A program made the translations under genes and the position numbers. A stretch of DNA of 64,000 bases, from NCBI RefSeq assembly GCF_014647155.1, contig NZ_BMOQ01000007.1, forward strand, positions 62,001 through 126,000, given 5' to 3'. Every line of letters begins with the position of its first letter. Position 1 is the stretch's first letter. Positions 42,916 through 45,758 of the stretch are shown piece after piece. Below the pieces are notes generated by a model that saw only the letters and a list, made by a program, of their open reading frames with translations, was not told where the DNA came from and ran no database searches. The stretch comes from Halarchaeum nitratireducens (lineage in GTDB: Archaea > Halobacteriota > Halobacteria > Halobacteriales > Halobacteriaceae).

Positions 42916-44949
42916 GTGACGCGGGCAGATCCGATCGAGTTCGAGACGGCGGGGAAGACGCTACGAATACACGACCGGGTGATGGACGCGACGTGTCGCA
43001 TCACCGCTGACGACGCGATCGACGTCGAGCGGGTGTTGGACGCGCGGTTCCTCTTCCCGGTCGACGCCGCAGTCTCCTTCGAGGCGACGACGCTGTCGAT
43101 GCCCGCGAACGCGGGGTCGTGTGTCCGTGACGAGCGCGGCGACATCGACGTCCAACTCTCCGATATCGTGGTGTCGTTTCCTCGCGGGACGTATTACGTC
43201 GACATCGAGGCGGCTTGCAAGCTCTACGTGAAGGTGTTCGACGCCGCGTTCGAGGCCGTCACCGAACACCACCACGGCGAGGGGGCGACGACACTGACGT
43301 TCGAGGAACCGACGCGAGTCGCGGTCGGTGCCCGTTCGCGCCACGAGCGTCCGCACGCGACGATCACGGTGCCCGACGATCCGGGGGCGCTGCTCGAGGC
43401 ACTCCCCTTCCTCGCCTCCGCGGTAAAGGAGTGGTCGCCGGAGCGCTCGTGGCCGACGCTCCGGGGCCACCCACCGCGGATCGAGCGCGGGGACGCCCTC
43501 TCGATCCCGTCGACGATTTCGCGGCCCGAGACGGGCGTGACGATCGCCACCCCGGCGACGTACGAGTCGCTGTACGCGGTCGCGCCGCTCGCCTACTACC
43601 TCGGTGCGGACGTGGTCGAGGCGTCCGAAGCGGAACTCCGCCTCGACAACGGCTATCGCCAGTCGCTGGGCGACGGCGCGGTCTCGCCGCGGGCGGCGAC
43701 CAACCTGCTCGAACGCTGTCTGTTCCTCGACTCGTTCGTGCGAACGGCCGGCTACTACGAGATGCCGCGCCAGGAGTACGAGCCGGTCGCGGGTGGGCTT
43801 TCCTTCTACCCGCCGGCGCTCTACGGTCGGCCGATCGTCGAGCAGCTCATGGAGTACCTCGAAGCGCCGCGCGCGGCGTTCGTCGACTACCTTCCGGACG
43901 CGCGCTACGTGGCCGTGGTGCGCGACGATCCGGCCGACGCCCCGTTGCTCCCGTTCCTCGTCAGGGACCTCGTGCCGGTGACGACCGATAGGCACGACGT
44001 GCCCGACGACCGCGCGATCCGGACCGGCTACAGCGGCGAGTGTGTGCCTCACGGGGCGACACGACTCTCGGTCGCGGGGTACCAGCACGCGCTCACCGAG
44101 CCGATGCGCGACGTGGCGGAAGAGCGTTTCGCACTCCTCGGTGTCGGCAGCGCGGCACGCGAGACGCTCTCCACGGTCCTGATCGGCCGCGAGCACCGGG
44201 AGGTCGCCGAGCCGTTCACGGTCGACACCGCGCCGCCAACGACGGCGGCCGTTCGGGACGCGCTCGAAACCGACTACGGCTTCGTTCACGTCGACGCGCC
44301 ACTGACCGACGCGGGGTTCGCCTGCCGCGACGGCGTCCTCGATCCAATGAGTGTGTCGTCCGTCTCGGCGCGCGCCGTGTCGCTCGTCGGCGACCGGGAG
44401 ACTGGTGGGCCTATCGTCGACGCCCTCGTCGAACGCGGGGCCCGCGTCGGCGTAGTGTCGACGACGCTCGGCGAACGTATGGTCGGCCGGATGGCGGGAC
44501 GTCTCCTCTCGGGCGCGCCGTTCGAGCGCGCCGTCGCGTGGTCGGGCGCGAAGGGCCCGCATCGCTTCGCCGGAGACGTCTCGGGGTGTCTGGTCCGCGT
44601 CGGCGGTGGCGCCTCGATCCCGAACCTCGTCGTCCGATCGACGACGCTCGAGAGCCACCAGCTGTGGGTTCGCGCGTGGTGGACGCAGTTCGACGCCGCC
44701 GGTGGGGTGACGGCGCTCTACGACGAACGCGTGTGCGACCAGTTCCAACTCTTCGGCACCGAGATCGAACAGCCCTCGTCGCTGTCGAGCGAGGCGGTCG
44801 CGGACCTCTGTAACGAGCGCGAGGCCGTTTACGTACTGAACGGCGACGTCTATCAGCACGACCACGACGTGACGCCCGACGAGGTCCGGCAGTCGGCGGC
44901 GCGCGCGCTCGCCGACCGATCGTCGACTCGGAACGACACCCAGTTCTGA
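42916..44949 (+). CDS. Large haloarchaeal protein with a CHAT-like, probably inactive, C-terminal domain
   Basis: 677 residues from GTG 42916. I do not recognise the first 440 residues, which look like a mixed alpha/beta haloarchaeal family (TYYVDIEAACKLYVKVFDAAF; YESLYAVAPLAYYLGADVVEASEAELRL). From about residue 450, YGFVHVDAPLTDAGFACRDGVLDP, VSSVSARAVSLVGDRETGG and LVERGARVGVVSTTLGERMVGRMAGRLLSGAPFERAVAWS follow the order of CHAT caspase-like proteases: His strand, Cys strand, then the AGA..V..T and fusion-helix region. Haloarchaeal CHAT proteins I recall have a VGH step and NAC before the acidic segment; here these read VHVDAP and LVGD, so both catalytic residues appear lost. It is probably a pseudoprotease or ligand-binding relative. 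No signal or membrane segment is seen. It stands alone between ndk and the cyclohydrolase gene. Confidence 0.55.
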   Translation: MTRADPIEFETAGKTLRIHDRVMDATCRITADDAIDVERVLDARFLFPVDAAVSFEATTLSMPANAGSCVRDERGDIDVQLSDIVVSFPRGTYYVDIEAACKLYVKVFDAAFEAVTEHHHGEGATTLTFEEPTRVAVGARSRHERPHATITVPDDPGALLEALPFLASAVKEWSPERSWPTLRGHPPRIERGDALSIPSTISRPETGVTIATPATYESLYAVAPLAYYLGADVVEASEAELRLDNGYRQSLGDGAVSPRAATNLLERCLFLDSFVRTAGYYEMPRQEYEPVAGGLSFYPPALYGRPIVEQLMEYLEAPRAAFVDYLPDARYVAVVRDDPADAPLLPFLVRDLVPVTTDRHDVPDDRAIRTGYSGECVPHGATRLSVAGYQHALTEPMRDVAEERFALLGVGSAARETLSTVLIGREHREVAEPFTVDTAPPTTAAVRDALETDYGFVHVDAPLTDAGFACRDGVLDPMSVSSVSARAVSLVGDRETGGPIVDALVERGARVGVVSTTLGERMVGRMAGRLLSGAPFERAVAWSGAKGPHRFAGDVSGCLVRVGGGASIPNLVVRSTTLESHQLWVRAWWTQFDAAGGVTALYDERVCDQFQLFGTEIEQPSSLSSEAVADLCNEREAVYVLNGDVYQHDHDVTPDEVRQSAARALADRSSTRNDTQF

Positions 44950-44999: not shown

Positions 45000-45758
45000 G
45001 TGACGAACGCTCAGGTCACTCTCGTCCAACTGGACAACTACGGCCCGTGGACGGTGACGCCCGCACCCCGACGTGAGGCCGACCTCCAGACCCTCCAGTC
45101 GCGCCTCTACGCCGACCTCTCGCAGTTCCTCGGCACCCGCGACGGCTACGCCTTCTTCACGCGCTTCGACAACATGATCGCGGTGACGAACGGCATCGAC
45201 CGGGCCGATCACCGCCGTCTACAGGAGTCGCTACGCAACCGCTATCCGGTCACCGTGAGCCTCGGCATCGGGACGGGCGCGAATCCGACGGACGCCCTCG
45301 TCGACGCGACCGCGCACCTGCAGGCGGCCGGGAGCGCGCAGGACGCCGAGCGCCGCGAAGTCCTCGCCGGCGATCCGATTTCACCGGACGACCGCGACGA
45401 CGACGACGTCCGCATCGCGCACTTCGACGTGAACGACGCGACCGGCAAGTACACGGACGAGCTCGACGCCTTCTCGACGTTCGTTCGCATCGAGCAGGGG
45501 TACGCGGCGCTGATGCGGACGCTCCACGACGAACACGACGGCCTCGCATTCTTCGTCGGCGGCGACAACGTCATCGCGCTCGTTCCCGACCTCGACCGCG
45601 ACACCTACGTCGACGTCATCGAGCGCGTCCGCGCGGAGGCCGACATGTCGCTCAAGGTCGGCGTCGGCGCGGGCCGCACCGCGACGGACGCCGGAATGGC
45701 CGCCAAACACGCCCTCGAAGTCTGCCGCGAGGAGGGGACGACCGTCGAAGGCGCGTAG
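45000..45758 (+). CDS. gch3: GTP cyclohydrolase III (IIa, archaeal)
   Basis: 252 residues from GTG 45000. VTLVQLDNYGPWTVTPAPRREADLQTLQSRLYADLSQFLGTRDGYAF...RFDNMIAVTNGI is the first of two ferredoxin/cyclase-like halves; IAHFDVNDATGKYTDELDAF...GLAFFVGGDNVIALVP is the second. This enzyme forms 2-amino-5-formylamino-6-ribosylaminopyrimidinone phosphate from GTP, the first step of archaeal riboflavin and F420 synthesis. The two metal-binding aspartates of the cyclase fold can be placed in LDNYGP and GGDNV. It is 50 bases downstream of the CHAT-like gene, but no functional link is obvious. Confidence 0.93.
   Translation: MTNAQVTLVQLDNYGPWTVTPAPRREADLQTLQSRLYADLSQFLGTRDGYAFFTRFDNMIAVTNGIDRADHRRLQESLRNRYPVTVSLGIGTGANPTDALVDATAHLQAAGSAQDAERREVLAGDPISPDDRDDDDVRIAHFDVNDATGKYTDELDAFSTFVRIEQGYAALMRTLHDEHDGLAFFVGGDNVIALVPDLDRDTYVDVIERVRAEADMSLKVGVGAGRTATDAGMAAKHALEVCREEGTTVEGA

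Follow-up and report, generated by a model that had tools for sequence, protein, structure and literature searches.

A probable pseudoprotease of CHAT/caspase fold in Halarchaeum and its dyad-bearing paralogues among haloarchaea

CHAT proteases (PF12770), such as SAVED-CHAT (8tl0) and TPR-CHAT/Craspase, and the clan CD proteases separase and gingipain are the closest described systems to the protein reported here. Separase cleaves at the consensus E-x-x-R. Inactive homologues of caspases are already known. According to the passages of PMC6426788 that concern them, the eukaryotic cFLIP-L and trypanosome metacaspase 4 are inactive and act with active relatives, either through pairing or as part of a cascade. 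Caspase homologues that have no His-Cys dyad are also described from prokaryotes, as bacterial pseudo-orthocaspases and as SyOC (excerpts of PMC6426788 and PMC7889975). The pseudo-orthocaspases are p20 proteins that typically carry Tyr and Ser in place of His and Cys, and the passages of PMC6426788 on them count none among 93 archaeal p20 sequences. Deletion of SyOC led to higher tolerance of oxidative stress (excerpt of PMC7889975). For archaea, according to an excerpt of PMC3615174, Haloferax volcanii shows strong caspase-like activity, and archaeal genomes are described there as being without clear homologues. No paper on the haloarchaeal family described below was found in the open-licence literature.

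The window, which is the whole stretch of DNA that was analysed, comprises 64 000 nucleotides of Halarchaeum nitratireducens (contig NZ_BMOQ01000007.1, positions 62 001 to 126 000). On its forward strand, a single open frame with a GTG start at 42916..44949 encodes a protein of 677 amino acids plus stop, for which orthologues with 76, 72 and 54 % identity were found in three other genomes of the genus. A single-protein search of genome contigs identified a relative with 76 % identity in Halarchaeum rubridurum, and relatives were present in 48 of 59 genomes searched. The first-pass annotation had described the protein as CHAT-like with both catalytic residues apparently lost, and had named comparison with PF12770 as a check. 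This comparison came back empty, as the protein matched no Pfam family, PF12770 included, at E values up to 10. Sequence searches of NCBIfam and the PDB likewise gave no match, and no plasmid record was covered to 80 % by the protein. The defining feature of pseudo-orthocaspases is a p20 domain (peptidase C14) that has lost the dyad. Neither C14 nor any other Pfam match was found here, and the protein is not classed with them, although it would work in a similar way.

The protein has two main parts. The N-terminal domain (residues 1-355, 42916..43980, + strand) is family-specific and belongs to no Pfam or PDB family; no Pfam match was obtained with either the protein or the family alignment. 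In the structural model, residues 8-143 matched beta-sandwich domains at Z scores of 6.5-7.5 in VIA, which is below the level that this tool treats as trustworthy. A shortened linker (residues 355-377, 43978..44046, + strand) follows. The caspase/CHAT-like core spans residues of about 397-563 (44104..44604, + strand), as judged from the model, structure matches and HHalign, and is preceded by a subdomain that begins near residue 328. About 110 more residues lie C-terminal of the core; this C-terminal part (residues 564-677, 44605..44946, + strand) is homologous to that of dyad-bearing relatives by HHalign and the model, and includes an additional modelled helix at residues 654-670. The strand and helix order of CHAT proteins, which had been assigned to the last 220 residues, was recovered, but its extent was not, since the core occupies residues of about 397-563 with flanking parts on both sides.

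Loss of the catalytic dyad was established by alignment to relatives in which it is intact. His and Cys (H503 and C534 in the numbering of the paralogue on contig C3) were invariant in 24 of 24 dyad-bearing members of alignment A2, which show the motifs IGH ... LNxC; the C3 paralogue itself reads FLHFIGH and FILNGC. In the window protein the His column is occupied by P462 (FVHVDAP; 44299..44301, + strand) and the Cys column by D493 (VSLVGD; 44392..44394, + strand). An active clan CD protease is recognized by its catalytic His and Cys, both of which are replaced in this protein, and the loss proposed from the sequence thus holds at columns that are invariant in the 24 active members. In a larger set of 99 members, both dyad residues were present in 43 (hereafter active members) while the pair was missing in 56 (inactive members). 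One inactive copy, L068, has kept Cys in the catalytic column while His is gone, and is perhaps an intermediate.

The predicted fold of the window protein is CHAT/separase/caspase-like. An AlphaFold2 model built from 42 sequences had a mean pLDDT of 90.0 and a pTM of 0.89, and a model of the active C3 paralogue from 24 sequences reached 83.3 and 0.86; from about residue 400 on, the order of strands and helices in the two models is identical. Among PDB entries, Foldseek matched the window model best to SAVED-CHAT (8tl0) at E 3.5e-5 and to separase (5fby) at E 5.6e-5. In VIA, the model matched DdvA (8rot) with Z 12.4 and rmsd 2.6 over 155 residues, 8tl0 with Z 11.6 and rmsd 3.1 over 153 residues, RgpB with Z 11.3 and separase (5fc2) with Z 10.9. 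Overall, clan CD entries were matched at Z 8-12.4 and rmsd 2.6-4.6, and the superposition suggested in the first-pass annotation thus supports the caspase-like assignment. The same entries scored higher (14-17) with the active paralogue than with the window model: separase 16.6, DdvA 16.1, RgpB 16.0, 8tl0 15.9 and Craspase 14.1, with caspases at about 10.

Profile comparison connects the inactive and active forms directly. When 19 inactive C-terminal regions were compared with 24 active ones, HHalign returned a probability of 99.75 and an E value of 2.1e-27 over 275 columns, and the claimed similarity to CHAT proteins is borne out in this way. PF12770 is silent on the window protein itself and the link to CHAT therefore runs through the family, in which PF12770 matched five of 24 active members at E up to 1 (best 1.3e-4). 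One of the active paralogues in the same genome, on contig C4, scores 24.1 bits with PF12770, just above the cut-off of 24, which together with the profile comparison makes the window protein homologous to dyad-bearing members of CHAT type. A rival reading has a haloarchaeal Rossmann-like domain that merely resembles CHAT; in its favour, PF12770 does not match the protein, and Rossmann-like and receiver domains appear among the lower-ranking Foldseek matches. This reading is contradicted by the profile homology to dyad-bearing members and by the clan CD proteases and CHAT proteins that head the structure matches, and is considered very improbable. That the window protein is a pseudoprotease of CHAT/caspase fold is held with high confidence.

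In members of the family, the first 355 residues or so form an N-terminal domain, and a CHAT/separase/caspase-like domain comes after it. Two active-type copies with this two-part build were found in the window's own genome by the paralogue search that the first-pass annotation had suggested: one at 158.8-160.9 kb on C3 (LHFIGH, LNGC) and one at 131.5-133.5 kb on C4 (VHYIGH, LNAC). Searches of PADLOC, Pfam, NCBIfam and the PDB with the family alignments returned nothing relevant except PF12770 in the five active members. Active-type relatives were present in plasmid records, mostly labelled 'hypothetical protein', with one labelled 'caspase family protein' and one 'CHAT domain-containing protein'. 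One genome (G016) carries three active-type copies in tandem (L041:2996-9306). A small protein adjoins the active gene in five genomes (L032, L041, L043, L050 and L051), and a TRAM domain was detected in the two of the five that were scanned.

These features place the family beside known systems without merging it with any of them. The window protein has the caspase-like fold in common with CHAT proteases, and its active-type paralogues carry the His and Cys motifs; the protein itself has neither the dyad nor a PF12770 match, and its N-terminal domain has no sequence match to known families. Separase and gingipain (RgpB) rank among the structures that the model of the active paralogue matches most closely, but their N-terminal parts differ, they have the dyad that the window protein is without, and there was no sign of cohesin-type substrates. 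The bacterial pseudo-orthocaspases likewise are prokaryotic and without the dyad, whereas the present family is archaeal and CHAT-like, has its own N-terminal domain and shows varied replacements at the dyad. cFLIP-L and metacaspase 4 are likewise inactive caspase-fold proteins found beside active relatives, but are eukaryotic with other accessory domains, and the window protein is known here from sequence and a model. The inactive CHAT-like sister clade is thus a new archaeal variant on a known theme.

A phylogenetic tree of the 99 members placed 54 inactive members in a single clade with support of 1.0, and the clade was also recovered from the N-terminal domain alone. This tree omits the full-length second copies L034 and L037, as de-duplication retained cut copies that were later dropped; alignment A1 is without L015 (truncated) and L009 (a partial copy of locus L040). 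L135 and L139 form a second inactive pair with GDV and LDGP at the dyad sites, and by their N-terminal domain they fall with C4-type active copies and outside the main inactive clade. Trees of the full-length proteins and of the N-terminal domain imply a separate loss in this pair (two changes), whereas the tree of the C-terminal domain alone joins both inactive groups (one change). The N-domain tree is preferred because catalytic domains that are dead may attract each other. Outside the order, a relative was present in four of four sampled genomes of one family of the phylum (f25). The dyad was found in three of these four relatives, indicating that the active form is ancestral, and the 54-member clade stayed intact with support of 1.0 when they were added to the tree. 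Tree and outgroup together indicate that catalytic function was lost more than once. The remaining outgroup relative, L167 (G330), has R and D where the dyad would stand and perhaps represents a third loss.

To describe the distribution of the two forms, 293 genomes of the order with at least 90 % completeness were surveyed. The profile of the active C-terminal domain matched 274 of these genomes, 273 of them at E values below 1e-60. The inactive profile matched 275, mostly through cross-hits to active copies, which among the sequences inspected scored at most about 123 bits against it. By inspection of sequences, inactive copies were assigned to at least 48 genomes, of which 47 belong to the survey, from four families and 14 genera, a lower bound since weaker matches were only partly fetched. 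A strong match to the active profile was found in 46 of the 47 surveyed genomes with an inactive copy, although not every dyad was checked individually. The exception, G167, has an inactive gene without an active-profile match, which may be due to an assembly gap (120 contigs). Nearly all sampled inactive copies were full-length open frames. In genus g11 the inactive gene was present in 22 of 22 genomes, with one copy truncated to a 584-aa frame (G029), and interrupted copies containing a stop were found in G111 and for one of the copies in G004.

Comparison of residues showed what the inactive members have lost, kept and gained (positions of lost and kept residues are numbered on the C3 paralogue in alignment A2). 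Catalytic-region residues that are near-invariant in the 43 active members have largely disappeared from the 56 inactive ones, with H503 surviving in none, C534 in one, W416 in two, N454 in one and N532 in none; the residues that replace the dyad differ from one inactive member to another. Core glycines were retained (G601 and G645 in 55 of 56 each, G547 in 49 of 56), and many N-domain columns that are invariant in active members persist in 54-56 of the 56. The window protein itself keeps most of these N-domain residues. Thirty-six columns were fixed in the inactive clade and rare in active members, a fixed column being one with the same residue in at least 80 % of 49 inactive rows and in less than 40 % of active members, and 32 of the 36 lie before residue 358. 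Seven of the 56 inactive rows were omitted from this count and restored for the count of a nine-residue signature (E172, W179, Y280, Y288, L295, F297, Y298, P299 and E313), which all 54 members of the main inactive clade carry and which L135 and L139 lack. In the window, E172 and W179 are encoded at 43429..43452 (+ strand) and the stretch from Y280 to P299, with the consensus EYxxxxxxLxFYPPxL, at 43753..43812 (+ strand). E172 occurs in none of the 43 active members, which have T (39), A (3) or S (1) at this position, and the string F[YF]PP was found in 51 inactive and no active members.

Fixation of this signature in 54 of 54 members argues against a decaying duplicate, and the window protein is a maintained pseudoprotease. 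Decay would be consistent with the faster divergence of the C-terminal domain than in active copies and with the few truncated or interrupted copies, but nearly all sampled copies are full-length, the gene persists throughout genus g11 and dN/dS is well under 1, so that this explanation too is considered very improbable. For the nearest pair (G000-G003), dN/dS by the NG86 method, which disregards codon bias and for which unsaturated pairs were few, was 0.22 (N-terminal) and 0.33 (C-terminal) in the inactive gene; the active gene gave 0.22 and 0.135, respectively. The caspase-like domain of the window protein also evolves faster than its N-terminal domain, with 69-70 % against 79-86 % identity to two orthologues.

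A second difference between the two forms lies in the linker. Measured between fixed alignment columns, the linker has a median length of 72 residues (range 63-96) in active members and 50 (range 31-81) in inactive ones, and in the model of the active C3 paralogue residues 357-400 have a pLDDT under 50. A motif [FLYW]-x-R-[SDAGNT], often in the form [D/E]-F-x-R, was present in 40 of 43 active linkers against one of 56 inactive ones, and the linker of the window protein has no [F/L/Y]-x-R motif of the active type. Shuffled active linkers contained the motif in a mean of 6.3 cases (maximum 13). As the motif was defined after the 43 active members had been viewed, a held-out set was drawn (20 further active loci fetched, one not recovered), in which it was present in 19 of 19 members against a mean of 2.8 (maximum 9) after shuffling; equal-length windows elsewhere in these proteins contained it in 44 of 200 cases. 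The [D/E]-F-x-R form resembles the cleavage consensus of separase. However, [D/E]xxR alone was found in 31 of 43 linkers against a mean of 22.4 (maximum 32) for shuffled ones, and it is the F/L/Y-x-R form alone that stands out. From sequence, the motif may mark a site of processing, or a pseudosubstrate, in which Arg occupies P1. Such a site suggests cutting after Arg, and the family may therefore not explain Asp-specific activity. The family and its dead clade nevertheless supply gene candidates, an active/dead pair and a testable linker motif in tractable haloarchaea. In active-type members, including the C3 paralogue (L032:3777-5891), [D/E]-F-x-R-[S/D] often occurs twice per linker; the candidate sites of the C3 paralogue are EFFR at residues 368-371 and AFVR at 377-380.

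The mechanism that we propose begins with a catalytically competent cysteine protease, built from the same two parts, which would have been duplicated. From one of the copies the His-Cys pair and the linker motif with its Arg disappeared; the N-terminal domain and structural core persisted in it, and new N-domain residues became fixed. This pseudoprotease may bind the ligand or partner recognized by the N-terminal domain of the family and, being unable to cut, could tune the active paralogues, either as their binding partner or as a competitor for ligand, in analogy to the effect of cFLIP-L on caspase-8. The linker motif would be the place where the active paralogues are processed or restrained, a step from which the pseudoprotease would be exempt. 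Regulation of this kind requires active paralogues in the same genome, and these are present on C3 and C4. The near-universal presence of active copies (273 of 293 genomes) means that their co-occurrence with inactive copies says little. On balance, we lean slightly towards an action of the pseudoprotease on or through its active paralogues. The fuller picture, in which a near-universal haloarchaeal separase/CHAT-like protease, restrained or processed at its linker, is controlled in at least 14 genera by a sister protein of ancient origin that does not cut and senses through its signature-bearing N-terminal domain, as a caspase/cFLIP-like pair, is offered more tentatively.

The pseudoprotease may instead have a job of its own, with the N-terminal domain binding a ligand or protein and the dead fold serving as a passive scaffold or output unrelated to the paralogues. 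The concentration of gains in the N-terminal domain, invariant over 54 members, fits this reading, as do the unlinked positions of inactive and active genes in this genome and the occurrence in G167 of an inactive gene without an active match; small unicellular cyanobacteria that have a pseudo-orthocaspase only, mentioned in an excerpt of PMC6426788, provide a precedent. An independent role is less easily squared with the strong active match in nearly every genome that bears an inactive copy, though this counts for less given how widespread active copies are, and we regard it as possible but somewhat doubtful. Another explanation is that a new site elsewhere in the domain has taken on some other catalytic activity, for which the near-invariant, clade-specific polar residues E172, E313, Y280 and Y288 and a near-invariant, clade-specific Ser and His in the C-terminal part could be candidates. 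The old site has no recognizable catalytic set and its replacing residues vary among members, which makes a new activity improbable.

Regulation of the active paralogues, the reading favoured above, finds no echo in gene order. No operon or close pairing of an inactive gene with an active paralogue was found, and the genes occupy separate contigs in this genome; in two genera the inactive copy is about 13-18 kb from an active copy, but with unlike genes between, so that this proximity is given little weight. Within the genus, ndk and GTP cyclohydrolase III flank the inactive gene in four of four genomes; in one of them the inactive gene is tandemly doubled. SAVED-CHAT and TPR-CHAT effectors are characterized by a SAVED or TPR domain and a CRISPR or CBASS partner; here the N-terminal domain gave no Pfam match, the neighbours scanned were ribosomal, ndk, GTP cyclohydrolase III, DNA polymerase and tRNA-modification genes, and no CRISPR gene was recognized among those examined. 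No conserved partner gene was found beside the inactive gene across genera; single gene pairs near inactive genes are common to G016, G022 and G031, and others to G004 and G010. The GTP cyclohydrolase III gene of the window (45000-45758; PF05165) also matched GGDEF_2 and, weakly, mCpol.
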